In this document: positions 2,322 through 42,951 of the stretch, piece by piece
How positions within the stretch are numbered: position 1 is the first letter of the stretch
Layout of the letters: each line of letters begins with the position of its first letter
Source: Glaciihabitans sp. dw_435
GTDB lineage: Bacteria > Actinomycetota > Actinomycetes > Actinomycetales > Microbacteriaceae
NCBI RefSeq assembly: GCF_018449675.1
Contig: NZ_JAAVUZ010000007.1
Location: forward strand, 62,001-126,000
Direction: 5' to 3'
DNA: 64,000 bases
Made by a program: the position numbers and the translations under genes
Notes under the pieces: generated by a model
Told to the model about the DNA's origin: nothing
What the model saw: the letters and a program-made list of their open reading frames with translations, nothing else
Database searches by the model: none

Positions 2322-3182
2322 GTGCACAGCAGCGCCATTGTCGCCTTGACCGCGGGTGAAGCGCGCCTGTCGGTGAGCGCTGCCACTGACGTCGGATCCG
2401 TCCGCGCGATCAACGAAGACAGCTATATAGCGCAACCGCCCCTGTTTGTCGTCGCTGACGGAATGGGCGGCCACGCGCACGGCGACCGCGCGAGCCAGAC
2501 CGTCGTTTCGGTACTGCGCGACAGTTTCGCCGCCGGATCGATCCCCGCGCCCGAGCAGGTACTTGCCGCAATTCGTGACGCCAACGACGCGGTACTCGGC
2601 TTCTCCGACGAAGACGGTGCCCGCGTTCTGTCCGGCACAACTCTCGTGGGCATCGCCCTCGTCGAGGCTCGCGGCGCCGACTATGCGCACTGGATGATCT
2701 TCAACATCGGCGACTCCCGCGTCTACAGCTGGGATGGCCGCCACCTCATCCAGCTGAGCGTTGACCACTCTGCGGTGCAGGAACTGGTGGATGCCGGTGT
2801 GCTGACGTCAGCGGAAGCGCTCGTGCACCCCGACCGCAACATCATCACCCGCGCCATCGGTGCGTCGGAGGACGCCGACGCCGACGTCTGGCTGCTCCCC
2901 GCGATCGGCGCGCAGTCCTTCCTCATCTGCTCCGACGGGCTCACCAAGGAACTCGAAGACGACGCGATCGCGCAGATCATGACCCAGCACGCCGCGGACG
3001 GCGATCGCTCCTCCATCGCCGATGCCCTCGTCGCCGCGGCACTGCGGTCCGGGGGACGCGACAACGTGACGGTCGTTGTGGTCGAATCATCCATCGACCA
3101 GCCCCTCATCGACGAAGAAGAAACGTCCGACCGCGCGCTGCGCACCGTCGAATACCTCGAAGACACGCGCCCACGCGCCTAG
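2322..3182 (+). CDS. PP2C-family protein serine/threonine phosphatase
   Basis: 286 residues, soluble, with no membrane segment. The metal-binding motifs of the PPM/PP2C fold appear in order: DVGSVRAINEDS (about 23-34), VVADGMGGHAHGD (44-56), NIGDSRVYSW (about 128-137), CSDGLTKEL (about 204-212) and GGRDNVTVVVVE (about 243-254). It is expected to dephosphorylate targets of the kinase encoded two genes downstream. The GTG start has GGAGGGGG 6 to 13 bases upstream. It is the first gene of the long signalling operon. It lacks the C-terminal membrane anchor found in mycobacterial PstP. Confidence 0.92.
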   Translation: MHSSAIVALTAGEARLSVSAATDVGSVRAINEDSYIAQPPLFVVADGMGGHAHGDRASQTVVSVLRDSFAAGSIPAPEQVLAAIRDANDAVLGFSDEDGARVLSGTTLVGIALVEARGADYAHWMIFNIGDSRVYSWDGRHLIQLSVDHSAVQELVDAGVLTSAEALVHPDRNIITRAIGASEDADADVWLLPAIGAQSFLICSDGLTKELEDDAIAQIMTQHAADGDRSSIADALVAAALRSGGRDNVTVVVVESSIDQPLIDEEETSDRALRTVEYLEDTRPRA

Positions 3183-3192
3183 GACGGACCGC

Positions 3193-4572
3193 ATGATCTC
3201 CTACGTACCCGCCGCGGGCGGCGACTTCCTGCTTGTCGCGACGGAGAACCGCGTGCTGTTCTTCCGCGCACCGGCCACGACGACCACCGGATCGATCAGC
3301 GACGTCTGGGACGCATTGGGGGCGGATGACCCGGTGCAGTCGGTCCTCGGCCGCCTGACGAGTGCCGGGCTCGAGTCGACGCCCCACTTCGCCCTCGCCA
3401 TCTGGTCGCCGGTCGACTCGTCCGTGCAGGTTCTCGTGCGCGGGGATCTTCTCGTCGACGTCGAGTCCACCCGCGTCAGCAACCGCATCGACGCGCGTGG
3501 GGTGTCGACCTGGCGCGAAACCACGATCGAGGCCGCGACCGGGCTCGTGGTCACCACCTCCGAAACGGCTTCTGCCGCCGGAACGGCTCTGCCGTTGCGC
3601 GCTGGTGCAGTGTGGGCGTCGTCCGCCACGGCGAGCTTCGACGCGTCGCTTCCCGCGCCGGCCATCTCCGAGGTTCGCGCCGCTCCTGTCGCGCCGGCCT
3701 CGGCCGCGACCACCTCGGCCGCGCAGACCCCGGCCGCGCCTGCCGTCACGCCTCCGCCCGCGGCGGCCCCCGTGCCCGCGGCGACGTTCTCCGATGCGTC
3801 CGATGTCGTCGAAGAGACGTCGATGCGCATCACGTTGCCGCCGGTGGGTGAGCGTCCGACCGACCCGGCAGGCGCCGACGCCGCTGACGCTGACGACGCT
3901 GCTGGTGCAGACGCCGATGCCGCGGCTGCCCCGGATGACCAGCCAGGCGAGCCCGCCGATCCCGAGGGAACCGCGGAGCCCGACGACGACATTGAGCACC
4001 TGCTCGACGCGACGATCGTGCGGTCGACGGACAGCGTTCCGTCCCGTCCCGTCGCGGAGCCCGCCACCGACGTGCTGCCCGTCGTCGACGCCGAAACGGC
4101 GGAGCCCGAGGGCGACCACGACGGTTTCACCATCATGAGCGCCGACCTCGCAGCCCTGCGTTCCGCCAAAGGCGCCGGGTCAGGCACGGCGACGGGGGGA
4201 GGGGCGGATGACGCGCCCCGGGTGCCCGAACAGGCGACCCTGTACCTCGAATCTGCCTCAGGCACCCGCGAACCCCTGACTCAGCCGGTCCTGATCGGCC
4301 GGGCGCCGAGCGTCAGCAAGGTTTCCAGCGGTCAGGTTCCGCGGCTGCTCACAATCGCGGGCAACCAGGACATCTCCCGCAGCCACGCCCAGATCGCTCT
4401 CGAGGGAGACACCGTCGTCGTCACTGACCTGCACTCACGCAACGGCACGTCGATCGTGCTCCCGGGCAAGTCCCCGCAGCTGCTGCGGCAGGGCGAGCCC
4501 ACGGCGATCCTGGTGGGCACGGTCATTGACCTCGGCGGCGGAATTTCGTTCACCCTTCGGCACGACGCATGA
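3193..4572 (+). CDS. FHA domain protein with long acidic linker
   Basis: 459 residues. The N-terminal 170 residues have no family I recognise. The middle (about 170-350) is a low-complexity Ala/Pro/Asp/Glu linker. The C-terminal 110 residues are a forkhead-associated domain with the phosphothreonine-pocket motifs IGRAP, SRSHAQI and LHSRNGT. FHA domains bind phosphothreonine, so this is a likely partner or substrate of the downstream kinase. The start is ATG 3193, with AGGACGGA (3181-3188) overlapping the end of the phosphatase gene. The gene ends in an ATGA overlap with the kinase. A longer frame upstream would overlap the phosphatase and is not supported. Confidence 0.88.
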   Translation: MISYVPAAGGDFLLVATENRVLFFRAPATTTTGSISDVWDALGADDPVQSVLGRLTSAGLESTPHFALAIWSPVDSSVQVLVRGDLLVDVESTRVSNRIDARGVSTWRETTIEAATGLVVTTSETASAAGTALPLRAGAVWASSATASFDASLPAPAISEVRAAPVAPASAATTSAAQTPAAPAVTPPPAAAPVPAATFSDASDVVEETSMRITLPPVGERPTDPAGADAADADDAAGADADAAAAPDDQPGEPADPEGTAEPDDDIEHLLDATIVRSTDSVPSRPVAEPATDVLPVVDAETAEPEGDHDGFTIMSADLAALRSAKGAGSGTATGGGADDAPRVPEQATLYLESASGTREPLTQPVLIGRAPSVSKVSSGQVPRLLTIAGNQDISRSHAQIALEGDTVVVTDLHSRNGTSIVLPGKSPQLLRQGEPTAILVGTVIDLGGGISFTLRHDA

Positions 4573-6299
4573 GCCGCGCGCCATCCACTCCTCCCCAGAT
4601 TCCGGGTCTGGAATATGTGAAGCCGCTCGGCACCGGTGGGTTCTCCGACGTCTTCCTCTATGACCAGCTGCTGCCCCGACGCCAGGTCGCGGTCAAGGTC
4701 CTGCTGACCGACGGCCTCGACACCGAGGCGCGCAAGGCGTTCGTCGACGAGGCCAACCTGATGGCGCAGCTGTCGGCGCATCCGTATATCGTCACGATTT
4801 TCCACGCAGATGTGGCATCCGGCGATCGCCCCTATTTCGTCATGGAGTACTGCTCGGGCCCGAGTCTCGCCGATCGCTACAAGTCCGAGGTCTTCAGCGT
4901 TGCGGACGCCCTGCGCACGGGCGTTCGGCTGTCCAGTGCCATCGCGACCGCGCACTCCGCCGGCATCCTCCACCGCGATATCAAGCCCGCCAACGTGCTG
5001 TCGAACCAGTTCGGCTGGCCGGCGCTCACCGACTTCGGCATCAGCTCGTCCCTCGAGGACGAGCTGCCTGGCCATCAGCCGACGGTCGCCGAACTGCGCG
5101 AGAGCGACAGCTCGACCATGGGGCAGTCGGTGGGAATGAGCGTGCCGTGGTCGCCGCCGGAGATGTTCGAGACCCACCCGCAGCCCGACGTGCGCTCGGA
5201 TGTCTTCTCGCTCGCCGCCACCATCCATACGCTTCTCGCCGGTCGTACACCGTTCGAAATCCCGGGTCGGTCGAACGGCGCCCTGGATCTCATCGGGCGC
5301 ATCGAACGCGGCGTCATCACGCCCATCGGCCGCGATGACGTGCCCCGGTCGCTCGTTGCGGTGCTGCAGAAGGGCATGGCGACCCGTCGCGAGGAGCGTT
5401 ACGCGACCGCGGTCGACTTCGCCCGCGCGCTGCAGCGCATCGAGCTCGAGCTCGGGTACTCGGCCACTTCCATCGAGGTGCCGAACCTCGTTGTCGAGCA
5501 GCGCGGCGCCGATGACACGCAGGCCAGCGACGAGGAGACCCGCGTTCGCCCCGTCGCCACCATCGCGGCGCAGGCTCCCCGCTCCACCCCCAGCGTCGGC
5601 GACGACGAGACACTCGTGCGCGCGGTGCGCATCATCGCGCCGCCGGTCGCGCCGTCCTCCGCCGGCGGCACGCAATCGGGCCTCGAAGAAACCATCGTGC
5701 GGGGACCGCGGGTGGTGGATGCCACGGTGGTTCGCCCCCGGACCACCTCCGGTTCTCCGGCAACCGGCGCCGCCGACACCGGAAGTCTCGCAACGCCATC
5801 ATCGCTGGACGGGTCGTCGCCGACAGCAACGGAGACCCCGGCCGCCGACGCGGCGTCCACCGCGCCCTCGAAGACACGCCGGCGCTGGATCATCGGGGCG
5901 GTCGCAGCCCTCGTGGTCGTGGGTGGCGTGGTTGGGACATCCGTCGCCCTGTCCGGCCCCTCCACCACCCGCCAGCCGCCCGCCGCGACGGCTCCCGCCA
6001 ATGCACCCGGCCAGAGCGCCGTCGTGGACAGCCCGGTACCGACTCCCGACTACCTGTCGGTCATGCCAAGCGCCGATGGGCTGAGCGCCACGTTCGTCTG
6101 GAAGAACCCGTCACCGGTGGACGGCGATACCTACCGCTGGTCGTACTCGGAGCAGCCGGGCGTGCAGACTCCCGTGCAGGAGGCTCAGGTCACGGTGCAG
6201 CGGCCCAGTGCCGGGGCACGTGTCTGTGTGTCCGTCTCGATCTTGCGGTCGGGCAAGACCTCCGCCGTTCCGCTGGAGATGTGCGACCCGCAAAAGTAA
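4569..6299 (+). CDS. Membrane-anchored serine/threonine protein kinase (PknB-type)
   Basis: 576 residues. The kinase domain (about 13-295) has the glycine loop GTGGFSDVF (21-29), catalytic Lys43 in VAVKV, HRD at 135-137 and DFG at 155-157, so it looks active. A Pro/Ala/Thr-rich juxtamembrane linker leads to one membrane helix (about 440-462). The extracytoplasmic part is about 110 residues with a FN3-like beta domain and a C-terminal cysteine pair, not PASTA repeats. It probably senses something at the cell surface and signals to the FHA protein. It sits between its likely partner FHA gene (ATGA overlap) and the giant surface protein. Confidence 0.92.
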   Translation: MSRAPSTPPQIPGLEYVKPLGTGGFSDVFLYDQLLPRRQVAVKVLLTDGLDTEARKAFVDEANLMAQLSAHPYIVTIFHADVASGDRPYFVMEYCSGPSLADRYKSEVFSVADALRTGVRLSSAIATAHSAGILHRDIKPANVLSNQFGWPALTDFGISSSLEDELPGHQPTVAELRESDSSTMGQSVGMSVPWSPPEMFETHPQPDVRSDVFSLAATIHTLLAGRTPFEIPGRSNGALDLIGRIERGVITPIGRDDVPRSLVAVLQKGMATRREERYATAVDFARALQRIELELGYSATSIEVPNLVVEQRGADDTQASDEETRVRPVATIAAQAPRSTPSVGDDETLVRAVRIIAPPVAPSSAGGTQSGLEETIVRGPRVVDATVVRPRTTSGSPATGAADTGSLATPSSLDGSSPTATETPAADAASTAPSKTRRRWIIGAVAALVVVGGVVGTSVALSGPSTTRQPPAATAPANAPGQSAVVDSPVPTPDYLSVMPSADGLSATFVWKNPSPVDGDTYRWSYSEQPGVQTPVQEAQVTVQRPSAGARVCVSVSILRSGKTSAVPLEMCDPQK

Positions 6300-6416
6300 C
6301 GATCGGGTGTAGCCACCCATTCGCGGGCAGAAGCGGCTGTCTCGAATACGACACATCGTGTTACGGTGATCGAGAAAGAACTGTTAAGAACTCAATGCTG
6401 ACGCGGGCGGGGCTAA

Positions 6417-9400
6417 GTGAGCATCTTCAGCTCGTGGGGGCGTGGGCGGCGCGCGATTGCGTCCGCGGTAGTGATCGCGATCGCGGCCGGAATTCCGGTG
6501 ACCGTTGCGGTTCTGCACGAGGGTTTTCCGACCTCTGACGTCGAGCTGAACACCCGCGACGTGTGGGTAACGAACAACACACTGTCTCTCGCCGGTCGTC
6601 TGAACCGCCAGATCGAAGAACTCACCGCCGGTGTCACGACCGTCAGCCAGTCCATCGACGTTGTGCAGGACGGCAAAAACGTCTTTTTGCACGACCTGTC
6701 GCAGAACACGCTCGAGCGTATCGATCAGTCCCGGGTCACCCTCGTGCAAAAAGCACTCGTGCCTGCCGGTGCAGAGATCGCGTTGGGCGCCACGACCCTA
6801 ACCGTCCTCGACCCCGCCGACGGCAAGTTGTGGGTAGTGGATGTCGCGAACGAGCTGAACTTTGACCCCACCACGGCCAAACCGGCCCTCACCCTCGGCG
6901 TCGGGGCACACGCCACCGTCGGGCTTGATGGCGTTGTCTACGCCACCTCGCCCAAGAAGTCCAAGCTGTACGAGATCGAGGGCGCCGGATTCAAGTCGAC
7001 CTCCGTCTCGCTGAAGATCCCGGCCGTGCACCAGCTCGCCGTCGTCGGATCGAAGCCCGTCATTCTCGACGCCGAGAAGGACGTGCTCATCACCGAGGAC
7101 GGCACGAACATCGCCCTCGGTTCCGACGGCATCCGGCTCCAGCAGTCGAGCGCGAAGAACGACTTCGCCCTGGTCGCGGGCGCCGACTCGTTGCTGGAAG
7201 TACCGCTGGATGGCGGCGACGTCACCAAGATTTCGGCGGACATCGCGCCTGTCACCGCGGCCACGGATGTCTCCGCACCCGTCTGGCTCGATGGCTGTGC
7301 CCACGCCGCCTGGGCAGGCGGCCAGCGCTACCTCGAGGCGTGCACGGGCGCGAAGGCCCGCACCATCGACATCACAGAGCCGACCCGGGGCTACGCGCTC
7401 GAGTTCCGCGTCAACGGTCACGTTGTCGCCCTGAACAACCTGGTGAACGGCAACACCTGGGTGCTGCAGTCCTCCCTCCGCCTGATCAACAACTGGCAGG
7501 AGATCACCCCTCCTCAGGAGAACACCCCGGAGAAGGGCACCGAGAAGTCCTCGCAGCAGTCCTTCGAGGAGACCCTCGCCACCCGCACCGACGTCAACCG
7601 TCCGCCGATCGCGCGCAACGATGACTTTGGCGTGCGCCCGGGACGCACCACGATTCTGCCGGTGCTCGACAACGACACCGACCCCGACGGCGACGTGCTT
7701 GTCATCACCGACTTCACCGCCATCCCCGAGAACATTGGCCACATCGACGCGATCGACGGAGGCAGGGCTCTGCAGTTCACCCCGGGGCAGTCCGTCTCCG
7801 GCGGAACATCCTTCCGCTATACCGTCAGCGATGGCCGTTCCGGCGGTGTCACCGAGGCGTCGGTCAACCTCCGCATCGTTCCGCTCGAGCAGAACAACGC
7901 TCCCGTCTCCAACCGCGACGGCGCAACCAGCGTCGAGGCTGGCCACTCCATCGCGTACAACGTGCTGAGCGACTGGATCGACCCGGACGGCGACGACCTG
8001 CTCCTCAAGGCCGCCTCCGCGACCAGCGCCGACGACGTGCGCTACACCCCGGACGGCTTCATCACCTTCCAGGACAAGGCCGGAGTGCTCGGCAAGAAGA
8101 CCGTGTCCTTCATCGTCTCCGACGGAACGCTCAACGCCACCGGCGAGTTCACCGTCGACGTCAAGGCCGACGGCTCGATGACGCCGGTCGCCACCCCCGA
8201 CTTCATCTCGGTCTTCGCCGGTCAGACCGTCGTGGTCGAGCCGCTGGCAAACGACCTCTCTCCGTCGGGTGCGCCGCTGCGCCTGTTGGCAGTGGATGAC
8301 GCTCCGCCCACCGCGACCGTCACGCCAAACCTCGACGCGGGCACCGTTGCGGTCAGCTCGACCCTCGTGGGTCCGATGTACCTGAAGTACGCCGTGGCCG
8401 CCGGAACGCCGACCGGCAACGGACTCATCCGCGTGGACGTCCTGCCCGACCCCACAGAAGATCTCCCGCCCATCGCGGTGAAAGACGTCGGGTACCTCCG
8501 CAGCGACGAGGCCACCACTGTCAAGGTTCTCGACAACGACGTTTCACCGACCGGCAAGGTGCTCTCGGTGCAATCCGTTGACACCGAGAACACCAGCGAC
8601 GCCGTCACGGTCGAGCTTCTCAACAACACGGTCATCCGCGTCACCGCATCCTCGGCGTTGACCGAACAGACCCAGTTCACGTATACCGTCAGTGACGGGC
8701 ACAGCACAGCGACCGCTGGTGTCACCATCGTTCCGGTTCCGCCGCTGCTCAAGAGGCAGCCCCCGGTGGCGACGGATGACCGCCAGACCGTGCGCGCGGG
8801 AGATATCGCCAGCGTCTCCGTGCTGAAGAACGACTACCACCCGGACCAGGAACGCCTGATCCTCAACAACACGCTGTCTGATGTGTCGAACGCCGGCGGA
8901 GGGCTCGCCTTCGTGAACGGCGACACGGTGCGGTACCAGGCACCCGCAAAGGCGGGGGAGTACTCGGTCGTCTACCGCGTCGACGACCAGTTCGGTGAGT
9001 CGGCCACGGCGACTGTCACCTTCGTCGTGACGGCGCCCGACGCGGCAACCAACCGTCCGCCGACGGCGACAACGCAGACCGCCCGCACGTTCTCGGGCTC
9101 GACGGTGCGCATCGACATCCCGTTGGACGGCATTGACCCCGATGGTGACTCGGTCGCCCTCAATGGCATCACCGTGAACCCGCAGCAGGGCCGCATCTCT
9201 TCCAGGGGCGCGACCTGGTTCGTCTACGAGGCGTTCGAGGGTGTGGCAGGAACCGACACGTTCAGCTACGAGGTCCAGGACACCTATGGCGCGAAGGCCA
9301 CCGGAAGCATCGTGGTCGGCATCATTCCCCGCGGTGACCTGAACGCCCAGCCCAACGCCGTCAACGACGCGATCGAGATGCGCCCGGGCAAGACCGCCTC

Positions 9401-12020
9401 GGTGCAGGTGCTGCTCAATGACTCCGACCCGAACGGGTTCGGCATCTCACTCGAACCGAAGCTGCTCGACGTGGACTCCGTGCTCGACGCGTCCGTTGAC
9501 GGCGAGAAGGTCATCGTGACCGCGCCCGAGACCGAGGGCGGCTACGTGCTGCGCTACCAGATCTCCAACGGCCACGGCGGCTCGGCCACCGCGTTCGTTC
9601 AGGTCAAGGTCACCAAGAACGCGCGGATCGTTCCGCCCACGGCGACCGACTACTACGTGCTCGACACCGAGATCAAGGGCACGGACCCGGTCGTGGTCGA
9701 CGTGCAGAAGCTCATCAACAACCCGTCCGGTCTCGACTCAGACCTGCTCATCACGAGCGTCGGCCCCAACAAGGGAAACGCGACGGTCAGCCAGCAGGAT
9801 GGCACCGTCACGGTCACCCCAAAGTCCACCCGGTACGCGGTTGCGTATCAGGTGACGGATCCGGATGACCCGACGCTGAGTGGCACCGCATTCATCGTCG
9901 TCCCCCCGCTCGTGGCACCGCCCGTTCCCACCACGTCGACGACGACGAACACACCCAAGCCCGCGGCTCCGCCGTATATCAAGATCGGCTTGCCCAAGCA
10001 GATCGTGCCGATGAACGGTACGCGTGACTGGAACCTCAAGGACATCGTCACGGTGCCGTCGGGCAAGCCTCCGATCATCGTGAACAAGGGCAGTGTCGTC
10101 GCCACCAACGGCAACGGCACCCTCGCGTACGTCGACAAGGACACCATCCGTTTCACGCCGAAGAAGGACTTCCGCGGCCAGGGCAGCATCACCTTCGAGG
10201 CCACCGATGGCACGTCTGCGACCGACCCTCTGGGCGCCAAGGCAATCCTTCAGCTGCCCATCACCGTCGGCGACCCGAACTTCGAGGACGTTGCGCCCTC
10301 CTTCACCAAGCTCGACATCAAGGTGCAGTCCGGCGAAACCGCGGTGGCTACCGACCTGCGCGACTCGACGACCCACCCCAACAAGAAGCTCATCCCGACC
10401 TTCACCTACTCGGGCCTGACGGCAGCGACCGGTGGCATCGTCGCGACCCTCAACGGGTCGGTCCTCACCGCTTCCGCCCCCTTCGGCACGCAGCCCGGCG
10501 TCAAGACGACCGTGAGCTTTGTCATCAAGTACAAGGCATTCTCGGTTCCCGGCACGGTGACGATCACCACGGTGTCGTCGACCCGTCCGCTTCCCAACGC
10601 GGTGGACGATGCTGCGAAGGGACAGCGGAACGTGACATCCACCGTCAATGTCCTTGCGAACGACTTCGATCCGTTCCCCGACAAGCCGCTCGTCGTTCTC
10701 GACGCGGCACTGCAGGAGCCGTCGGCGACAATGTCGTGGACGCCGGACGGTCAGGTCACTATCTCTCCGACGGCTGTGGGTAACTTCCATGTGATCTACA
10801 CGATTGAAGACGCGACCAAGGATCCTGCGCGCCGGGTGAAGGCGATCTATACGCTGACCGTTCGGGATATCCCCGATCAGCCCGCGGCTCCCGCGATTGT
10901 CTCGGAGCAGGACACGGCAGTCAGCGTGAGCTGGCAACCACCGACAACCAACGGTGAACCGATCCTCGAGTACGTTCTGACCTGGAACGGCGGATCGAAG
11001 ACTTTCGGTCCCAACGAGTCGACGGCAACGATCGACGGCCTGACCAACGGAACGAACTACAACTTCCGCATCACGGCGAGCAACATGCTCGGGGTGAGTA
11101 CGGTGTCCGAAGCCAGTGCGGCGGCGCGTCCGTTTGGTGCTCCATCGGCACCGTCGTCCGTTTCCATTTCTTCTGCGACGAACGGCAGCGGAGTTGTCTC
11201 CATGAGTTGGGGAGCGGCCAGCGGAAATGGACGCGATGTCGACCATTACAAGTGGACGCTGAGTGACGGAACGACTGGTGAGACCACCTCGCTGTCCGCG
11301 TCATCCACCCGCACCGTCGGCTCGTCGTACACCGTCACGGTCGTTGCTGTCGGACCTACTGGGCTCGCTGGCGCAGGAAAGGCAAGCGGGTCATCCGTGA
11401 CGCCGACCCCAGGCCAGGTCGCCAGCGCCACCGCTACGGCAGGCGCCAAGGGCGACAAGACCGTCACGCTGAAGTGGGGGAACGCAGCGACCACCGGCGA
11501 CATCGATCGATACGAGATCAATGTGAACGGTGAGGGGTGGAAGTCGCAGGGCCTCGAACACAGCGCCTCGTACACCGGCAAGTTCGGTTCCGCGACGAGC
11601 TTCTCAGTGCGGGCCGTGGACAACGGCTCTACTGGCGCTGCGATCACGTCGAACTCGGTCACCCCGGAAGATGTTCCGCCACCAACTCCGCCGGGTGGAT
11701 CTATCACCGCGGTGTCAGCGGAAACCTACGTCTGTCAGGACGCATCTGCAAAGAAGGTATGCCGCCAGGCAATCTTCACCATTCACGATGCACCGTCGGG
11801 CACCAACCAGGCCTTCCTGCAGCTGCTCAACAGCAGCGGTGCGGTGACCTGGACGTCGCAGAGCACCGGGTCCGTCTCCGGTAACGACGGCCGCACCGGT
11901 GGCTTTGTAGCCGACCCGGGTGCCGGAAACTCTGTCCGCGTCAAGCTGGTGGGACCGAACGGGACCTTCTACACCGACCCGGTCGGGCGCGACACATGGC
12001 TCAACCTTCCACAGCGTTAA
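6417..12020 (+). CDS. Giant surface protein: beta-propeller-like head, Ig-like repeats, three FN3 domains
   Basis: 1867 residues with an N-terminal membrane anchor or signal (about 12-33). Residues 40-370 look like repeated short beta blades. From about 390 to 1480 come roughly eleven Ig/cadherin-like modules of about 95 residues. Several of these open with a PPxAxxD motif and carry VLxNDxDPDGD calcium-binding-type loops. Three FN3 domains follow at about 1485-1570, 1573-1660 and 1662-1753, then a small domain with two cysteines. There is no LPxTG-type motif, so retention is probably through the N-terminal helix. GTG 6417 starts the frame with a G-rich RBS. Its role is unknown; structural or adhesive function in the envelope is inference. 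Its FN3 domains echo the FN3-like domain outside the kinase. Confidence 0.8.
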   Translation: MSIFSSWGRGRRAIASAVVIAIAAGIPVTVAVLHEGFPTSDVELNTRDVWVTNNTLSLAGRLNRQIEELTAGVTTVSQSIDVVQDGKNVFLHDLSQNTLERIDQSRVTLVQKALVPAGAEIALGATTLTVLDPADGKLWVVDVANELNFDPTTAKPALTLGVGAHATVGLDGVVYATSPKKSKLYEIEGAGFKSTSVSLKIPAVHQLAVVGSKPVILDAEKDVLITEDGTNIALGSDGIRLQQSSAKNDFALVAGADSLLEVPLDGGDVTKISADIAPVTAATDVSAPVWLDGCAHAAWAGGQRYLEACTGAKARTIDITEPTRGYALEFRVNGHVVALNNLVNGNTWVLQSSLRLINNWQEITPPQENTPEKGTEKSSQQSFEETLATRTDVNRPPIARNDDFGVRPGRTTILPVLDNDTDPDGDVLVITDFTAIPENIGHIDAIDGGRALQFTPGQSVSGGTSFRYTVSDGRSGGVTEASVNLRIVPLEQNNAPVSNRDGATSVEAGHSIAYNVLSDWIDPDGDDLLLKAASATSADDVRYTPDGFITFQDKAGVLGKKTVSFIVSDGTLNATGEFTVDVKADGSMTPVATPDFISVFAGQTVVVEPLANDLSPSGAPLRLLAVDDAPPTATVTPNLDAGTVAVSSTLVGPMYLKYAVAAGTPTGNGLIRVDVLPDPTEDLPPIAVKDVGYLRSDEATTVKVLDNDVSPTGKVLSVQSVDTENTSDAVTVELLNNTVIRVTASSALTEQTQFTYTVSDGHSTATAGVTIVPVPPLLKRQPPVATDDRQTVRAGDIASVSVLKNDYHPDQERLILNNTLSDVSNAGGGLAFVNGDTVRYQAPAKAGEYSVVYRVDDQFGESATATVTFVVTAPDAATNRPPTATTQTARTFSGSTVRIDIPLDGIDPDGDSVALNGITVNPQQGRISSRGATWFVYEAFEGVAGTDTFSYEVQDTYGAKATGSIVVGIIPRGDLNAQPNAVNDAIEMRPGKTASVQVLLNDSDPNGFGISLEPKLLDVDSVLDASVDGEKVIVTAPETEGGYVLRYQISNGHGGSATAFVQVKVTKNARIVPPTATDYYVLDTEIKGTDPVVVDVQKLINNPSGLDSDLLITSVGPNKGNATVSQQDGTVTVTPKSTRYAVAYQVTDPDDPTLSGTAFIVVPPLVAPPVPTTSTTTNTPKPAAPPYIKIGLPKQIVPMNGTRDWNLKDIVTVPSGKPPIIVNKGSVVATNGNGTLAYVDKDTIRFTPKKDFRGQGSITFEATDGTSATDPLGAKAILQLPITVGDPNFEDVAPSFTKLDIKVQSGETAVATDLRDSTTHPNKKLIPTFTYSGLTAATGGIVATLNGSVLTASAPFGTQPGVKTTVSFVIKYKAFSVPGTVTITTVSSTRPLPNAVDDAAKGQRNVTSTVNVLANDFDPFPDKPLVVLDAALQEPSATMSWTPDGQVTISPTAVGNFHVIYTIEDATKDPARRVKAIYTLTVRDIPDQPAAPAIVSEQDTAVSVSWQPPTTNGEPILEYVLTWNGGSKTFGPNESTATIDGLTNGTNYNFRITASNMLGVSTVSEASAAARPFGAPSAPSSVSISSATNGSGVVSMSWGAASGNGRDVDHYKWTLSDGTTGETTSLSASSTRTVGSSYTVTVVAVGPTGLAGAGKASGSSVTPTPGQVASATATAGAKGDKTVTLKWGNAATTGDIDRYEINVNGEGWKSQGLEHSASYTGKFGSATSFSVRAVDNGSTGAAITSNSVTPEDVPPPTPPGGSITAVSAETYVCQDASAKKVCRQAIFTIHDAPSGTNQAFLQLLNSSGAVTWTSQSTGSVSGNDGRTGGFVADPGAGNSVRVKLVGPNGTFYTDPVGRDTWLNLPQR

Positions 12021-12057
12021 TGGCTCTCAGACTTCAACCCCAGAAAGAGGAAACGCA

Positions 12058-13026
12058 ATGCCCGTAACTCAAGAGCAGGCGACCTGGTTCGCGGACGCCT
12101 TCAACAAGCTTGTCGGCAACGTTGGACAGGCAATCCTCGGCAAGGACGAGGTCATCCGTCTCGTTGTGACGGCGCTGCTGTCTGACGGACACGTGCTGCT
12201 GGAGGATTTCCCGGGAACGGGAAAGACGGTTCTCGCAAAGGCGATCGCCAACACCCTCGACGGCACGAACTCCCGCATCCAGTTCACCCCCGACCTCCTC
12301 CCGTCGGACGTCACCGGTGTGACGATCTACGACCAGGGCAAGGGCATCTTCGAGTTCCACAAGGGCCCGATCTTCGCGTCGATCGTGCTCGCGGACGAGA
12401 TCAACCGCGCGAGCCCCAAGACCCAGAGCGCGCTGCTCGAGGTCATGGAAGAGGGCGTCGTCACGGTGGATGGCGTCGGCCACGCCGTTGGCTCGCCGTT
12501 CATGGTGATTGCCACGCAGAACCCGATTGAGCAGGCGGGTACCTACTCTCTGCCCGAAGCACAGCTCGACCGCTTCCTCATCAAGACATCGCTCGGATAC
12601 CCCGACCACGCGACCGCCGTCGCCCTGCTGCTGGACTCCGGCAACCGCGCTCGTGCCGCCAAGATCACGCCCATCGTCACGTCGGAAACCGTGACTACGA
12701 TGTCGCAGCTGGCCTCCGAGGTCTTCGTCGACCGCTCGATCATGGAGTACATCAGCACCCTTATCACCGCCACCCGCAACAACAAGGACGTCGTGCTCGG
12801 TGCCTCCATGCGTGGTGCCATGGCGCTCTCCCGTGCGGTGAAGACCTGGGCCATCGCCTCCGGTCGCACCTACGTCACCCCCGACGACGTGCGCGACCTC
12901 GCCGTGCCCGTACTTGCCCACCGCCTCATCATCGACCCGGAGTCGGACTTCGCCGGTGTCAAGGCGGAAGACATCGTCACCCGCATCCTCATCGATGCGG
13001 AGCCGCCCGCCTACCGGGCCGCGTGA
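12058..13026 (+). CDS. MoxR-type AAA+ ATPase
   Basis: 322 residues. Walker A DFPGTGKTVLAKA is near residue 49, the Walker B and sensor region ADEINRASPKTQSALLEVMEE follows, and the family motif ATQNPIEQAGTYSLPEAQ is present. MoxR ATPases act as chaperones or remodelers for partner proteins, usually those encoded beside them as DUF58/VWA and transglutaminase-like proteins, as here. The start ATG 12058 follows AGAAAGAGGA (12042-12051); upstream in-frame starts would overlap the giant gene. It is paralogous to the ATPase at 40616-41656. Confidence 0.93.
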   Translation: MPVTQEQATWFADAFNKLVGNVGQAILGKDEVIRLVVTALLSDGHVLLEDFPGTGKTVLAKAIANTLDGTNSRIQFTPDLLPSDVTGVTIYDQGKGIFEFHKGPIFASIVLADEINRASPKTQSALLEVMEEGVVTVDGVGHAVGSPFMVIATQNPIEQAGTYSLPEAQLDRFLIKTSLGYPDHATAVALLLDSGNRARAAKITPIVTSETVTTMSQLASEVFVDRSIMEYISTLITATRNNKDVVLGASMRGAMALSRAVKTWAIASGRTYVTPDDVRDLAVPVLAHRLIIDPESDFAGVKAEDIVTRILIDAEPPAYRAA

Positions 13027-13036
13027 TCGCCGCAGC

Positions 13037-14242
13037 ATGATTCGCAAACTTCTCTCGCTCGCATCCCGCCGGGTGGTGACCACCGTCGGGCCGGTTCTCT
13101 CCGTTATCAGCGGAGTTGGATGGCTCGTGCTGGGCGCTGCCGTCGTGACGTGTGTCATCGGCTGGAGCCTCGGGTGGCAGGAGTTTGTCTATCTGGGGGT
13201 GACCCTCGCCGCGGCGCTTCTCGTCGCGCTGGCGTTCATCTTCGGCCGGTCCACGTATTCGGTCGAGATCGAGCTGAACCCGCTGCGGGTGGTCGCGGGC
13301 GATCGTGCGCTGGGACGTCTTCTCGTTACCAATACGAGGGACCAGCGCTCCGGGGCATCCCGGGTCGAACTCCCGGTGGGAGCAGGCTCGGCCGAGTTCA
13401 TCGTGCCGCCGCTGGACTCCAAGGTCGTGCACGAGGAACTCTTCGCGGTGCCGACCAACCGTCGGGCTGTCATCGTCGCCGGACCCGCGATCTCCGTGCG
13501 GGGTGACCAGCTGGGGCTGCTTCGCCGCACGGTGACGCTCGCCGAGTCCGTCGAGCTGTTCGTGCACCCGATCACGACGCCGCTCGCGCCGTCGGCCGCG
13601 GGCCTCGTGCGGGACCTCGAGGGTCAGGTCACGAAGACCATCAGCAACAACGACATCGCCTTCCACGCTCTGCGTGCCTACGAGCCCGGCGACGACCGCC
13701 GGTACGTGCACTGGCGCACCTCCGCACGCACCGGTCAGCTGATGGTTCGCCAGTTCGAGGAGACCCGTCGCTCGCAGCTGGTTCTGCTGTTTTCTTCCGA
13801 GCGCAGCTACTACGCGTCCGACGACGAGTTCGAGCTTGCGGTATCCGTGCTCGCCTCGCTCGGCGTGCAGGTGATCCGCGACGGCACCACCATCAACGTC
13901 CTCACCGAGGACCGCGAGCTTCGCGCCCGCACCGTCAGCTCGCTGCTCGACGACAGCTGCCGCATCGAGGCGCTCACCACGCCATTCGCCTCCACGCGCG
14001 ACTTCGCCCGCTCGGCCACACGCCGCCTCCCCGCGCCCAGCGTCGTCATGGTAGTTGCCGGATCGCTGTTCCCCGTCAGCGACTTCCGCTCGGTCGAGGC
14101 GCTCTTCGGCCAGGACACCCAAACCGTCGGCTTCCGCGTCGAACAGGGCGGCACGCCGCGCCTGTCGTCCATCAACCGACTCCGCGTCGCCACCATCGGA
14201 TCGCTCGACGATCTTCCCCGCCTTGTCAGGAGAGCGACATGA
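13037..14242 (+). CDS. DUF58 domain membrane protein, partner of MoxR
   Basis: 401 residues. Two membrane helices near the N-terminus (about 15-60) are followed by a beta-rich periplasmic-type domain and the DUF58 core motif YEPGDDRRYVHWRTSARTG near residue 215. DUF58 proteins have a partial VWA-like fold and accompany MoxR ATPases. ATG 13037 lies 10 bases after the MoxR stop without a clear RBS, so translation may be coupled. It overlaps the next gene by ATGA. Paralogue of 41662-42951. Confidence 0.88.
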   Translation: MIRKLLSLASRRVVTTVGPVLSVISGVGWLVLGAAVVTCVIGWSLGWQEFVYLGVTLAAALLVALAFIFGRSTYSVEIELNPLRVVAGDRALGRLLVTNTRDQRSGASRVELPVGAGSAEFIVPPLDSKVVHEELFAVPTNRRAVIVAGPAISVRGDQLGLLRRTVTLAESVELFVHPITTPLAPSAAGLVRDLEGQVTKTISNNDIAFHALRAYEPGDDRRYVHWRTSARTGQLMVRQFEETRRSQLVLLFSSERSYYASDDEFELAVSVLASLGVQVIRDGTTINVLTEDRELRARTVSSLLDDSCRIEALTTPFASTRDFARSATRRLPAPSVVMVVAGSLFPVSDFRSVEALFGQDTQTVGFRVEQGGTPRLSSINRLRVATIGSLDDLPRLVRRAT

Positions 14243-16722
14243 CGACGGATGCCACGTCCGCCCGCACCCCGTCAGCGGCGGCCATCGCGGCCGAGATGCA
14301 CCCCATCGCGCGCCGAACCTGGATCGACACCGCGGTCATCCTCGGCCTCGGAATCATCGCGATGTTCGGTTTCGGCACGGCCTTCGACTCCCCGGTCTAC
14401 CTTCTCGCGGGCATCGGCGGTCTGCTCGTCGGCGCGTTCGCCGCACTGCTGTCCTACCGCCTCGGGTTCGGAGCCCTCCTCACCGTGGGCGTCGGCATCA
14501 TCGCGTACTACCTGTTTGGGTCGGCGTTCGCGCTGTCCAGCCAGGCACTGTTTGGGTTCCTGCCGAGCCTGAACTCCCTCTCCAGCCTCACAATCGGTGC
14601 CGCTTACGGGTGGGCCGACATCCTCACCCTCCGGGCACCGGTCGCGCTGCCCGACTACGTGACCGCGGTTCCGTACGTCACCGGCTGGCTCATCTCGCTC
14701 GTCGCCGTCACCCTGGCCGCGCGCTGGCTTCCCACGCGTCCGCGCACCGCCTGGCGTGCGGGCATCCTGCTCATCGGACCCGTCGTCATCTACCTGGCAG
14801 GCATCCTGCTCGGAACCGAGCAGCCCTACTTTGCCGCCCTGCGTGGCATCGCCTTCGCCGCGATCGCTCTTGTCTGGCTGGGCTGGCGCCGACGCGACGC
14901 CGCCGGTCTCGCCGTCGGCGGAACCGGCACCGTCCTGCGTCGCAAGATCATCGGTGCGGGGATCGTCATTGCCGCGGCCGTCGTCGTCGGCGCGATCGTC
15001 GGATCCACGGTCGCACCCCCGGCCGCCGACCGGTTTGTGCTGCGCGACCAGGTGCAGCCCCCGTTCGAGCCGCTCAAGTACCCGGCACCGCTCGCCGGCT
15101 ACCGCAAGTACACCAAGGACCTCGTCGACACGACCCTGTTCACGGTCAATGGCATGCAGGAGGGGGAGCGCATTCGCCTGGCAACCATGGACACCTACGA
15201 CGGAGAGATCTGGGGTGTCGCCGGGTCGGAGGAGTCGTCGGATGCCTCGGGCAGCTTCCGTCTCGTAGGCCAGCACATTCCCGCGCCCGACCTGCTCACC
15301 AGCGTGGCGAAGGCATCCGTCGACGTAAAGGTTGACGGCTACTCCGACGTGTGGGTTCCATCCGAGGGATATCCCTCGTCGATCACCGTGGGCGCGAGCA
15401 CCAACGGGTCGGAAGACGAGGATTTGCGCTACAACGATGCCACCGGCACCGCGGTCCTCACCAGCGGTCTCGCCAAGGGCAGCGAGTACTCGCTGAAGGC
15501 AGAGCTGCAGTCGGTTCCGACGGACGAGAGCCTCAAGGGCACATCCATCGCGTCATTCGCTCCGTCCTCCGTCACGGGAACCCCGGACGCCGTTGTCGCC
15601 AAGGCCATCGAAGTGACGAGCTCGGCGACCACCCCGGTCGAGAAGCTGCGGGCGCTCGAGCAGTACCTCGTGACCACCGGCTACCTCAGCCATGGTTCCG
15701 CGTCCGACCAGGCACCGTCCCTCGCCGGCGAAGGTGCCGACCGCATGTACTCGATGGTGACCGGCCCGCAGATGGTCGGTGACGAGGAACAGTACACGTC
15801 GCTGTTCGCGCTGATGGCCCGCAGTCTCGACTACCCCGTGCGCATCGTCATGGGCTTCGCGCCCACCGTTCCGGCCGAGGGCACGGCCCCCGTCGCGGTC
15901 ACCGGCCGTGACGTCACCGCCTGGGTGGAGGTCGCGTTCGAGGGCGTCGGCTGGGTGCCGTTCTACCCGACGCCGAAGCAGACCGACGTCCCGCAGGCAC
16001 AGGTGCCGAAGCCGCAGTCGGAGCCGCAGCCGCAAGTGCGCCAGCCGCCGCGCTCCGAGGTTACGCAGGACGATCTCGTCACTCCGGTGCAGATCGACAA
16101 GAGCGATGACAAGAAAAAGAAGAAGAACGCGCTCATTCCGGGCTGGGCCTACGGCGTAGCCGGGGGCATCCTGATTCCGCTCATTCTCATCTTTGGCCCG
16201 ATGATCGTCGTCGGAGCGCTCAAGGTGCGGCGCATGCGTCGACGCCGGGCGGATGCCTCGGGCGACATGTCCGTCGCGGGAGCGTGGGACGAGCTCGTGG
16301 ATCGCTACTCGGAGCTCGGATACACGGCACCCCAGCGCACCACGCGCATCCACGTCGCCGCCGATCTCGAGAAGCAGGTGGAGGGAGCGCCGCTGCGCGG
16401 CATCGCCCAGTCCGCCGACGCCGCCGTGTTCTCCGGCCGGGAGATCGACAAGGAGGAGACGGACCGCGTGTGGACCGAGGTTCTCGCCGCCGTCGACATC
16501 GCCGGGGGGAGCGTCAGCCGCTGGCGCAGCATCCTCAGTCGCTACCGCGTCAGCGCCGCACGGTCCTGGGCGGCGCGGGTCGCGGCCCGGGTCGAGTCGG
16601 CCGACGCACGGAAGGAACGCTCGAGCATCCGTCGTTCCCGCGCGGCGACCGCCCGTTACCTCAGGGCGCGCGACCGTGCCGATCGTGCCGCGGCCGCCAA
16701 CGAGACGGAGATCACACCGTGA
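14239..16722 (+). CDS. TgpA-like transglutaminase-fold membrane protein, probably catalytically dead
   Basis: 827 residues. About seven membrane helices occupy residues 30-260. An extracytoplasmic region contains a transglutaminase-like core (about 450-580), then come one helix (about 632-655) and a basic cytoplasmic tail. In the paralogue at 42948-45302 the core reads TGYCVHFAS and DLHAWPE. Here the matching stretches read VGDEEQYTS and DVTAWVE, so the catalytic Cys is Glu516 and the His is Thr560. The third triad position is Tyr in FYPTP. The fold is kept but protease or transglutaminase chemistry is unlikely. A binding or regulatory role in the MoxR-DUF58 complex is inference. ATGA overlap before it and GTGA overlap after it. 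Confidence 0.85.
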   Translation: MTTDATSARTPSAAAIAAEMHPIARRTWIDTAVILGLGIIAMFGFGTAFDSPVYLLAGIGGLLVGAFAALLSYRLGFGALLTVGVGIIAYYLFGSAFALSSQALFGFLPSLNSLSSLTIGAAYGWADILTLRAPVALPDYVTAVPYVTGWLISLVAVTLAARWLPTRPRTAWRAGILLIGPVVIYLAGILLGTEQPYFAALRGIAFAAIALVWLGWRRRDAAGLAVGGTGTVLRRKIIGAGIVIAAAVVVGAIVGSTVAPPAADRFVLRDQVQPPFEPLKYPAPLAGYRKYTKDLVDTTLFTVNGMQEGERIRLATMDTYDGEIWGVAGSEESSDASGSFRLVGQHIPAPDLLTSVAKASVDVKVDGYSDVWVPSEGYPSSITVGASTNGSEDEDLRYNDATGTAVLTSGLAKGSEYSLKAELQSVPTDESLKGTSIASFAPSSVTGTPDAVVAKAIEVTSSATTPVEKLRALEQYLVTTGYLSHGSASDQAPSLAGEGADRMYSMVTGPQMVGDEEQYTSLFALMARSLDYPVRIVMGFAPTVPAEGTAPVAVTGRDVTAWVEVAFEGVGWVPFYPTPKQTDVPQAQVPKPQSEPQPQVRQPPRSEVTQDDLVTPVQIDKSDDKKKKKNALIPGWAYGVAGGILIPLILIFGPMIVVGALKVRRMRRRRADASGDMSVAGAWDELVDRYSELGYTAPQRTTRIHVAADLEKQVEGAPLRGIAQSADAAVFSGREIDKEETDRVWTEVLAAVDIAGGSVSRWRSILSRYRVSAARSWAARVAARVESADARKERSSIRRSRAATARYLRARDRADRAAAANETEITP

Positions 16723-17369
16723 CGACACCGTCCATCGCAGTCCCGCCGCTGAGCCTTCCCGAAGAGCTGCAGCTCGCGCTGCCGGCGCCCCGCCGCGGCC
16801 CGTCGGACTCCATTGCCTGGGGATTCTGGGAGATCGGCGCGGCAGCGGTCATCGACCTGGCGCTCGCGGGCCGGCTGGGTCCCGTCGACCCGCCGTCGAC
16901 GTCGACCAATGCGTGGGATCGCAAGATTCGTGTGACCGACCCGACTCCCACGGGCATCGCTCCGCTCGACGTCCTGCTGGAGGCCTTCGTCGCCCGCGAC
17001 AAGCCGTGGAAGGCGGTGGCCTGCATTACCAGGACCGCGGCCTCGGTCTCCTCGGCCACGGCAGTCTCGCTTGCGGGGCGGGGCTTGGTTGTCGCCCACG
17101 GGCGCTCTGGCCAGCCCACCGCCTATCTGGAAGTGGTCGACGCTGACGCCCGCCGCGCGGCGGAAGAGCACCTCCGGTCGCGCCCGGCGGACCTTCTCGC
17201 GACCGATGACCGGGCGGCGATCCTCCTCGACATCTGGCGCCAGACCGTTAGTGCTCCGCCACAGCCAGCAGTCTCCGCTCCCCGAACGAGCGAGCGATAC
17301 CCGGACGCCGTCCGCTACGTCATCGAAGCAGCGCTCGAGTCGACCCGCGCGCTCACCGCGGGCGAATGA
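16719..17369 (+). CDS. GPP34 (GOLPH3/VPS74-like) domain protein 1
   Basis: 216 residues, soluble. The opening LSLPEELQLALPAP, then a helix AAAVIDLALAGRLGPVD, then DPTPTGIAPLDVLLEAF match the start of the GPP34 domain (Pfam PF05719): a leading LLAEEL-type motif, an AxLxELxLAGRL helix and a DPxPxGxxxLD segment. Eukaryotic members bind PI4P and retain Golgi glycosyltransferases. Bacterial members are common in actinobacteria without settled function. GTG 16719 overlaps the previous stop (GTGA) and GAGACGGAG precedes it. The C-terminal third is weakly conserved. The family call comes from pattern reading and would need a profile search. Confidence 0.65.
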   Translation: MTTPSIAVPPLSLPEELQLALPAPRRGPSDSIAWGFWEIGAAAVIDLALAGRLGPVDPPSTSTNAWDRKIRVTDPTPTGIAPLDVLLEAFVARDKPWKAVACITRTAASVSSATAVSLAGRGLVVAHGRSGQPTAYLEVVDADARRAAEEHLRSRPADLLATDDRAAILLDIWRQTVSAPPQPAVSAPRTSERYPDAVRYVIEAALESTRALTAGE

Positions 17370-17389
17370 CGCATCCGACAAGGAAACCC

Positions 17390-18127
17390 GTGGAACTGAC
17401 CCTCGCCGACGAGGTATACCTCGCACGATTCGACCTGACGACAGGGCTCACGGCACATCGCCCGAGGTGGGACGCCACAGCACCGTCGCCCGTGCGGGCA
17501 CCGCAGGCGGCGGCACTCGTCGAGCTGATCGCGGCCGGGCACGCGACCGCGGTCGCCACGCACACAACAGATCCCCGCAAAGCTCTCATGGGAATGGATG
17601 ACTCGCGTCCGGAGATCTCGGTCACCGCACTCACACCCACCGACCCGCTCCTGATCTCGGTCTGGGAGCAGCTCAGCGATGCGGGCGCTCCGCGTACCGT
17701 GCGGAAGACGCTGCTCGCCATCCGGATCGACATGGAGGAGCGGCTGATGGGCTTGGGCGTTCTCGACCGGCAGGTGGCGCGTCCCGGGGCACTGTTCCTC
17801 ACCGTGGACGGCATGACCGCGGCCCGCGCGAGTCGCGCCGAACTCAACGCATGGGTGGCGCGAAACGACGTGGCGATACCGGCCGCCGACCGGGTCATGA
17901 TCGCGCGGGCAACCGAGCCGTCGTCACCGCTGAGCCCACGCTCGCGTCTGCTTGCGGCTCTTGTGACGGCCGGAGACCTCTGGGCACAGATGTGGCCCGA
18001 TCGTGAAATAAGCTCGAAGGCTCAGGGGATGCTGAGTATCGCGCGGGATGAGGCGCTGTACGAGGGGATCGCTGCATTGCCGGCAATCCTGCAGGAACTC
18101 CGGCTTCTCAACGCTCCATCAGCCTGA
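17390..18127 (+). CDS. GPP34 (GOLPH3/VPS74-like) domain protein 2
   Basis: 245 residues from GTG 17390, which has AAGGA (17380-17384) at good spacing. ATG 17366, which overlaps the previous stop as ATGA, is the alternative and would add eight residues. The order of motifs is the same as in its neighbours: LADEVYLARFD at the N-terminus, AAALVELIAAGHATAV, TDPLLISVWEQL and a C-terminal LLAALVTAGDLWAQMWPD. It is closer to the third copy (shared ADxVxL start and GDxWAxxWP end) than to the first. Cytoplasmic; function unknown. Confidence 0.6.
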   Translation: MELTLADEVYLARFDLTTGLTAHRPRWDATAPSPVRAPQAAALVELIAAGHATAVATHTTDPRKALMGMDDSRPEISVTALTPTDPLLISVWEQLSDAGAPRTVRKTLLAIRIDMEERLMGLGVLDRQVARPGALFLTVDGMTAARASRAELNAWVARNDVAIPAADRVMIARATEPSSPLSPRSRLLAALVTAGDLWAQMWPDREISSKAQGMLSIARDEALYEGIAALPAILQELRLLNAPSA

Positions 18128-18159
18128 TCAACGTCAACCTTTCCCGAAAGAGGCACACG

Positions 18160-39524: not shown

Positions 39525-39541
39525 CAGACGTCGCTGCGGGG

Positions 39542-40519: not shown

Positions 40520-40541
40520 GCCCCCACGCTAACGCCCCTGA

Positions 40542-40569: not shown

Positions 40570-40615
40570 ACATTCGCAGGTCGCTATCGGGCCCCTGCAT
40601 GGCAGAGTGTTAAAG

Positions 40616-41656: not shown

Positions 41657-41661
41657 TTGCC

Positions 41662-42951
41662 GTGCCCCGTACCTCACCCCGTCGCAGCACCACGCGGCTG
41701 ACCCGTCGCGGCTGGTACTTCGTCGCGCTCGCGGCAGTCTTCTTCGTCGTGGCCTACAGCAGCGGAAGCACGACTTTGCTCTACGCAGCGAGCTTCCTCG
41801 GCGTGCTGATCGTGGCCGCCGCGCTGCTCGTGCGGCTTCGCCGCCTGCGGTTGTCGGTTGTGCGAACGTTCTCGCCCGTGGTGGTGCCGGCCGGATCGCC
41901 CGTGGACGTGGAACTGTCGGTGACCAACGTCTCCCTCGCCGCCAGCGGGCCGGCCACCTGGGCAGACCGCATCCCGTGGAATCCCGGCACCGCTGGCCCC
42001 GGGCAGCTTCCGGCGCTGGCGGCTGCCCTCCCCGGACGCGTTACCTCCGCCACGACCGCGCGGCTGTCGTACACGCTGCGCCCGCCGACCCGCGGTATCT
42101 ACACGATCGGTCCGCTCGAGGTCGAGTACGCCGATCCGTTCGGGCTGTCCACCGGCCGGGCATCCCTAGCCGGGGTGCAGTCGCTCGTCGTGGTGCCCGC
42201 CACCGTCTCGTTCGGCGAGGGAGGACCGTCGATCGTCTCCGGGGACGGCTCCGCCCGGCTCATCCAGCGCCGCACCACCGGCAGCGACGACGACCTCATG
42301 ACCCGCGAGTATCGCAGCGGCGACGCCCTGCGCCGCGTGCACTGGCGGGCGTCGGCGCGGCACGGCGAACTCATGGTGCGTCAGGAAGAGCAGCGCACCT
42401 TCCCCGAGGCGCGCGTGCTTCTCGATACCCGCTCCGACGGCTACGCGGACGTGTGGGCCGAGCTCGGCGGCGAAGAGGGCGGCAAGTCCGCCTTCGAGTG
42501 GGCGGTGCGCATGATCGCGTCGCTCGGCGTGCACCTGCACCGCTCGGGTTTCCGCGTGCAGTTGCTCGAGACGGGCCATCCGCAAATCGCAGCCCTCGGC
42601 GATATCAACCAGGGTTCCGGCCAGGACCTCGAGTTCCTCGTGAGCCTCGCCGCTCTGGAGCTCAGTCCCGCGCCTCCGCCCTCGGTTGGTACCGATGGGA
42701 TGAACCGCGCCGATGGTGCGCCCGGCCCCATCTTCGCCGTGCTCTCGATCTCCGACCCGGACACCCTGCGCTGGATCATGGCGCAGCGCCGCCCGCGCGA
42801 ACTCGGCGTCGCCTTCATCGTCGGACGAGGCACCGACCACGTGCTGGAGACGCTCGGCAACGCCGGGTGGATCTGCGTGCCTGTCGGGACGGCGGATGAC
42901 CCGGCTCTCGCCTGGTCGAGCATCGCCCGATTCTCGGCGGCAGTCTCGTGA
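41662..42951 (+). CDS. DUF58 domain membrane protein (second copy)
   Basis: 429 residues. Two N-terminal helices (about 15-55), a beta domain, and the DUF58 motif YRSGDALRRVHWRASARHGELMV (given here only as its landmark YRSGD...HWRAS) near residue 214. GTG 41662 is five bases after the MoxR stop, and the stop overlaps the next gene as GTGA. It is longer than its paralogue at 13037, mainly in the C-terminal half. Confidence 0.88.
   Translation: MPRTSPRRSTTRLTRRGWYFVALAAVFFVVAYSSGSTTLLYAASFLGVLIVAAALLVRLRRLRLSVVRTFSPVVVPAGSPVDVELSVTNVSLAASGPATWADRIPWNPGTAGPGQLPALAAALPGRVTSATTARLSYTLRPPTRGIYTIGPLEVEYADPFGLSTGRASLAGVQSLVVVPATVSFGEGGPSIVSGDGSARLIQRRTTGSDDDLMTREYRSGDALRRVHWRASARHGELMVRQEEQRTFPEARVLLDTRSDGYADVWAELGGEEGGKSAFEWAVRMIASLGVHLHRSGFRVQLLETGHPQIAALGDINQGSGQDLEFLVSLAALELSPAPPPSVGTDGMNRADGAPGPIFAVLSISDPDTLRWIMAQRRPRELGVAFIVGRGTDHVLETLGNAGWICVPVGTADDPALAWSSIARFSAAVS

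Follow-up and report, generated by a model that had tools for sequence, protein, structure and literature searches.

The window analysed here is a 64,000-nucleotide stretch of the actinobacterium Glaciihabitans sp. dw_435 (family Microbacteriaceae; contig NZ_JAAVUZ010000007.1, positions 62,001 to 126,000). The gene under study, at window positions 14239-16722, encodes a TgpA-like protein of the transglutaminase fold and corresponds to tgm in an operon of the PFNA type. Comparison with homologues showed that the catalytic triad of the fold is replaced in this protein. Going beyond the first-pass annotation, which had described the replacement in this one protein, loss of the catalytic Cys was found to be family-wide among the relatives examined, with the residue at its position drifting between E, D, Q, S, A and G. 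The features of the gene, and the paralogue used for comparison, are as follows.

14239..16722, forward strand: open reading frame (ORF) of the Cys-less TgpA-like protein (PFNA-type tgm), 827 amino acids (aa), PF01841, zero Cys
14311..15012, forward strand: N-terminal helical block, residues 25-258, in the AlphaFold model; taken as transmembrane helices, a membrane nature suggested by hydrophobicity
15079..15984, forward strand: TgpA-like fold, residues 281-582 (6g49/6g4h, Z 23 over ~250 residues), presumably extracytoplasmic by analogy with TgpA
15688..15696, forward strand: codons of S484-H485-G486, family-conserved (S 0.96, H 0.77, G 0.96), not in Cys-bearing relatives
15781..15792, forward strand: codons of D515-E516-E517-Q518, within the near-invariant motif G-D-x-E-Q
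15784..15786, forward strand: codon of Glu516, replacing the catalytic Cys (alignment, family counts)
15916..15918, forward strand: codon of Thr560, replacing the catalytic His (alignment, family counts)
15964..15966, forward strand: codon of Tyr576, replacing the catalytic acid (alignment, family counts)
16141..16704, forward strand: helix 635-670 of the model, likely the last transmembrane helix, followed by a helical C-terminal domain, presumably cytoplasmic, that extends to residue 822
42948..45302, forward strand: canonical TgpA paralogue, 784 aa, C504/H552/E568, in a separate MoxR-DUF58-TgpA set

The tgm frame is intact, with an ATG start and 0 internal stops. On alignment with the TgpA paralogue of the window, C504, H552 and E568 corresponded to E516, T560 and Y576, with the numbering checked on the translations, as the first-pass annotation had claimed. 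This paralogue is a distant comparator (26% identity across 317 columns); a nearer one elsewhere in the genome, 33% identical to the tgm protein, is likewise Cys-less (GDAEQF). The annotation had allowed that another Cys/His pair might occupy the active site. The protein contains no Cys, and His only at 21, 346, 485 and 705, so that a substitute Cys/His pair is impossible, and misalignment or a substitute Cys could be ruled out. Transglut_core (PF01841) matched residues 456-577 with 58.5 bits, against a curated cut-off of 23; active members of this family carry a Cys-His-Asp/Glu triad, in place of which the protein has E516/T560/Y576. TgpA_N (PF11992) fell below reporting at E 0.001 for the tgm protein and scored 54.2 bits for the nearer Cys-less paralogue. 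A scan of NCBIfam assigned no family to the protein, and a PDB sequence search with this single protein gave no match. Judged by its residues, the tgm protein almost certainly lacks transglutaminase or cysteine-protease catalysis.

The fold appears to be kept, as had also been proposed. The AlphaFold model (predicted local distance difference test score 85, mostly >90 in the TgpA-like part) matched Pseudomonas aeruginosa TgpA structures 6g4h and 6g49 with Z of 23.3 and 23.1 and root-mean-square deviations of 3.3 and 3.1 over 252 and 251 residues, respectively. The predicted arrangement, an N-terminal helical block followed by a TgpA-type domain, resembles that of TgpA, a membrane protein with a periplasmic transglutaminase-like domain. 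In the model a helix starts at E516, the nucleophile position, and the family profile aligns with 6g49 over the stretch after the nucleophile. The TgpA report describes a conserved triad and a periplasmic domain assayed as an active transglutaminase (PMC3507681), whereas the triad is lost in the PFNA tgm family. Residues D515, S484, G486, S494 and R502 are family-conserved, rare in Cys-bearing relatives, and near the old site in sequence.

Homologues were sampled from 60 genomes of the family (53 with a match), 59 of the order (49), 60 of the phylum (46) and 30 of the class (26), as well as from 61 genomes of the family of genome G096 (24 with a match) and 80 named loci, the best of at least 549 relatives. 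In one sampling step, 169 hits were reduced to 147 by identity or containment. PFNA-type homologues were defined as those scoring >200 bits with the family profile, which was itself built from Cys-less sequences. None of the 158 distinct homologues above this threshold had Cys at the nucleophile position (E 47, D 42, Q 28, S 20, A 19, G 2), a count that set aside six rows without motif columns, three of them Cys-bearing by pattern and three partial ORFs. Loss of the Cys is therefore due neither to chance nor to sequencing error. The flanking motif was near-invariant, with the preceding D in 156, the following E in 158 and Q in 157. Under a definition free of any score cut, the Cys motif was found in 0 of 112 transglutaminases at loci bearing an FN3 gene (see below), and G[DN]xE[QH][YF] in 112 of 112. 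When 39 Cys-less homologues were aligned with the canonical paralogue, E, Q, D, A or G stood where the Cys would be; E517 did not vary, and 5 of the 39 had the His. 

Lower-scoring homologues carried Cys in 56 of 60 cases and His in 56 of 60. The four Cys-less exceptions were L282, L284 and L285, divergent members from a family designated f4, and L218, which is the same gene as L255. G-[YF]-C occurred in 54 of 58 ORFs examined, the other four being the window tgm, its nearer paralogue (L217), L218, and L215, which has neither motif. Outside the order, the best score in the phylum and class genomes sampled was 151.4 bits. In Cys-bearing relatives the usual motif is G[YF]C[EQV][QH]F (E 0.67, Q 0.72; 18 rows); relative to this consensus, GDxEQ[YF] thus keeps the common E-Q and alters the nucleophile and the residue preceding it.

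The question had been raised whether Glu and Thr are fixed in this clade. Thr560 was found in 62 of 64 close orthologues and is near-fixed, among these only, whereas position 516 held E in 39, Q in 21 and A in 4, and Tyr576 was not fixed. These counts ruled out Glu as a fixed new catalytic residue. Nor were orthologues found that keep the triad: His plus acid was retained in 27 of the 158 homologues, with Asp replacing Cys. Those 27 members might indicate that tgm still encodes an enzyme of some other chemistry, in which the residue at the old nucleophile position or the new polar residues (D515, H485, GHG, R502) would form an active or metal site. The newly conserved polar residues adjoin the old site, and Ser occupies the nucleophile position in family f4, where the motif reads GDSEQYA in 20 of 20 genomes with a hit >300 bits. 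However, the nucleophile position varies over E, D, Q, S, A and G, with 13 letter changes on the tree described below; His was kept in 34 of 158 homologues, all of them among the 42 rows with Asp and none among the other 116, so that the 20 Ser rows lack it; and the window protein has Glu, Thr and Tyr. Because the nucleophile position varies and His occurs only with Asp, no one mechanism fits all members, and we regard another chemistry as very unlikely.

Family f4 is probably Bifidobacteriaceae. A Bifidobacterium 16S primer site was present in 3 of 4 f4 genomes tested and in 0 of 6 others, and together with the second primer site it delimits 549-561 bases end to end, a stretch that was compared with the expected amplicon length. 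XFP phosphoketolase was tried as a bifidobacterial marker and found non-discriminating, as the window genome carries XFP too; the 16S sites took its place.

A tree was built from 72 hand-picked rows after removal of the catalytic columns. On this tree a single change accounts for whether Cys is present, and another single one for the preceding Asp, while His changed 4 times and the acid 8 times. The Cys-less operon clade was supported at 100/100, although several basal forks did not resolve. The direction of change, loss and not gain, is read from the generality of the Cys triad in the superfamily rather than from the tree. Within the tree, 15 rows form a clade (98/98) in which Asp stands in place of the nucleophile; 14 of these rows have His, and 12 have His plus Asp. 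The window tgm protein has none of the three triad residues. The sister of the Cys-less operon clade, at 100/99 and with a long branch between, is L255, from the same class and another order. L255 (G190:C144, transglutaminase gene at 9473-11791) encodes a Cys-less TgpA from outside the order (GTSEQFA, VLVWPE, FYPTP) and lies beside MoxR, DUF58 and a kinase ORF.

Selection was examined through the ratio of nonsynonymous to synonymous substitution rates (omega) in relatives 80-97% identical, using 17 non-overlapping pairs of 26. Omega was 0.051-0.459 for the whole gene and 0.015-0.367 for the core, with a core median of 0.082. Purifying selection on this gene type is strong in the relatives. The drift of triad residues across the family could be taken as the mark of a decaying paralogue under relaxed constraint, but the full-length frame, the conserved operon, the low omega and the near-invariant GDxEQ all argue against it. 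Decay was refuted for the family by the kept operon and the purifying selection in relatives, and for tgm we give it practically no credence. The gene encodes an enzyme homologue without catalytic residues whose relatives are under purifying selection, as a pseudoenzyme is defined. The earlier view of a retained pseudoenzyme is thus supported by fold, selection and operon alike.

The other genes of the operon precede tgm in the window.

2322..3182, forward strand: PP2C phosphatase (PF13672)
3193..4572, forward strand: FHA-domain protein, putative start (PF00498)
4569..6299, forward strand: Ser/Thr protein kinase, pkb2-like by position (PF00069)
6417..12020, forward strand: FN3 protein, 1,867 aa, with N-terminal helix, beta-propeller (~45-363), Big_9/cadherin repeats and fn3 domain
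12058..13026, forward strand: MoxR AAA+ ATPase (PF07726), Walker-type motifs apparently intact by eye
13037..14242, forward strand: DUF58 protein, putative start (PF01882), vWA-like strand Asp replaced; 4-base overlap with the tgm start

These genes, read as an operon from their common strand and close spacing, show the PFNA order kinase - fn3 - MoxR - DUF58 - tgm, together with FHA and PP2C, at 2322-16722. For bifidobacteria, three reports describe the same core order with PP2C and FHA downstream (PMC8430577, PMC6803598, PMC10688814); these two genes lie upstream in the window and on either side in related loci. The FN3 protein of B. longum GT15 is reported at 1,994 aa against 1,867 aa in the window, and each of the two has an fn3 domain around residue 1,490. 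The claim that operon context is kept held across loci of the tgm type: 112 of 121 PFNA-type loci show an FN3 gene, and 8 of the remaining 9 end too early, at a contig end. Among the 121, three were counted twice (L041/L113, L043/L111, L048/L072), and L059/L067 have identical cores. FN3-MoxR-DUF58-TG (transglutaminase, TG) loci were found, among the matches listed, in Schumannella, Cryobacterium, Agromyces, Leifsonia, Microbacterium, Herbiconiux, Arthrobacter and Actinotalea, as well as others.

The association with FN3 was also evident at the genome level. Across the 59 genomes sampled from the order, the N-terminal domain of the FN3 protein and a TG scoring >200 bits were both present in the same 28 and both absent in the same 31 (Fisher P = 1.8e-17, which ignores relatedness); 8 families contain genomes of either kind. 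The N-terminal 400 residues of the FN3 protein were modelled (score 87) as a helix and a beta-propeller, with a top Z of 21.2 and many propellers tied. Pfam has no family for this propeller domain (window 6417-7616), which occurs order-wide in step with the TG.

The canonical actinobacterial sets, represented in the window at 39425-45302, contain the same three genes, MoxR, DUF58 and TgpA, in the same order. They differ in the company they keep: no FN3 gene was found at 20 such loci (19 distinct, one being counted twice: 18 with Cys, and L255), and a kinase, FHA or PP2C gene only at L255. Their triad is intact except in L255. All 19 canonical rows (two of them being the window locus), and L255 as well, have the Asp that heads the DUF58 vWA-like strand; it is present in only 15 of 120 PFNA-type loci, where mostly Ser (73) or Thr (15) replaces it. 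This Asp is presumably of functional importance.

Since the window holds both a canonical TgpA (42948-45302) and the tgm gene, each with its own MoxR and DUF58, the Cys-less protein might instead regulate the active paralogue as a decoy or inactive partner. Pseudoenzymes often regulate their active kin. This proposal fits poorly with the exact tracking of the FN3 protein by the Cys-less TG in the 59 genomes, and Cys-bearing TgpA also occurs in genomes without the Cys-less form. Genomes G078, G089 and G096, which have the Cys-less form, gave no second hit in a search that was not designed for canonical TgpA. We therefore think such regulation improbable. A cell-wall ligand, such as a peptidoglycan stem peptide or envelope sugar, might also be bound in place of the FN3 protein, making the tgm protein an envelope sensor. 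In favour of this, the TgpA-fold domain presumably faces the envelope, and the kinase, phosphatase and FHA partners suggest sensing. The strict co-occurrence with FN3 speaks against a wall ligand, which we consider unlikely.

Taken together, the strict tie to FN3, the retention of the fold and the residues newly conserved in the family point to a binding role for the tgm protein. On balance we favour the view that tgm is a transglutaminase-fold pseudoenzyme of a PFNA-type operon, which would connect the FN3 surface protein with MoxR-DUF58 and be controlled by the kinase. The protein itself is probably a non-catalytic transmembrane scaffold or receptor. That the FN3 protein is its direct partner, as co-occurrence and gene order suggest, seems to us about evenly balanced. 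In the proposed mechanism, the former active-site region (GDxEQ, SHG, and GHGxxR, which reads GEGADR in the window protein) would bind a partner on the outer face without turnover, the likeliest candidate being the operon's own membrane-anchored propeller/Ig/FN3 protein. The helical C-terminal domain would contact DUF58 and the MoxR ATPase inside, and the kinase, PP2C and FHA proteins would set the state of the complex through phosphorylation. B. longum MoxR is reported as a substrate of the PFNA operon kinase (PMC8430577).

Several observations weigh against this view. The match between profile score and Cys loss is imperfect, as L282, L284 and L285 are Cys-less yet score <200 bits. L255/L218 is Cys-less, and the FN3 gene is absent from its contig. 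At L095 (Microcella alkalica, 9614-12356), the only PFNA-type locus with room for FN3 between kinase and MoxR but without it, the TG is also split over two frames, which may reflect either true decay or an error in sequencing. The evidence for FN3 binding by the tgm protein consists of co-occurrence and gene order. Some chemistry is possible in the Asp-bearing clade, with His in 14 of 15 rows and His plus Asp in 12 of 15. The window tgm lies outside the omega pairs, its nearest relatives being too distant. Finally, newly conserved residues also occur far from the old site in sequence (265, 274, 305, 377, 399, 603).

A broader idea, which we hold only tentatively and would sooner expect to fail, is to see in the PFNA operon a MoxR machine that is for the most part non-catalytic. 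The TgpA-like protein and, in most lineages, DUF58 would have lost their presumed active residues, with the ATPase apparently intact, serving an ATP-driven, phosphorylation-controlled installation or display of the FN3 protein. A former protein-modifying system would then have turned to surface-protein assembly and sensing in many families of one order, including gut bifidobacteria.

These results bear on published accounts. In PMC8430577 the tgm protein is termed a transglutaminase and presumed to be a cysteine protease; PMC10688814 states that the operon was found only in Bifidobacterium. The operon was found here in further genera and families of the order, and the published range conflicts with this distribution. 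The published role would conflict too, on sequence grounds and provided that f4 is what the 16S sites suggest, as those probable Bifidobacteriaceae genomes carry the Cys-less tgm (GDSEQYA). No paper stating that PFNA tgm lacks the catalytic Cys was found among the open-access papers searched. If our view is correct, models of PFNA host dialogue that assume an enzymatic tgm (transglutaminase or cysteine protease) and a Bifidobacterium-only operon would need revising. Cross-linking assays for tgm would aim at the wrong activity. The operon would be broader than host interaction and common in mostly free-living actinobacteria. A bacterial pseudoenzyme clade, often with an active relative in the same genome, would also make the function of MoxR-DUF58-TgpA testable.

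Parallels exist in eukaryotes. Protein 4.2 acts as a membrane scaffold. EPB42/protein 4.2 and FBXO21 have a transglutaminase-like fold without catalysis, and the structure of protein 4.2 was a weak match to our model (Z 5.3). Both are called inactive transglutaminase relatives in PMC10318531. They belong to an unrelated lineage without MoxR or DUF58 partners, so that the parallel is one of kind, with kinship in the fold only.

Two other assignments of the operon were tried and rejected. The MoxR protein scored 42.3 bits as bpMoxR (cut-off 27), far under the 204.5 bits for AAA_3; the systems described in PMC7159879 have their propeller on the vWA protein, whereas in the window operon it sits on the FN3 protein. 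For anti-phage defence, PADLOC returned generic kinase hits and weak ATPase and phosphatase hits, and none for the tgm protein, DUF58, FN3 or FHA.

A second PFNA-type operon is present in the window genome at L036 (G000:C1:477623-488322), the locus of the nearer paralogue, with its own Cys-less TG (GDAEQF) and FN3 protein. L044 (G009) seems to have its PFNA genes split into several short ORFs and present in repeated sets, as though duplicated and broken. Directly 3' of tgm, window positions 16719-18894 hold two GPP34-domain genes and a similar-looking third ORF without a Pfam match.

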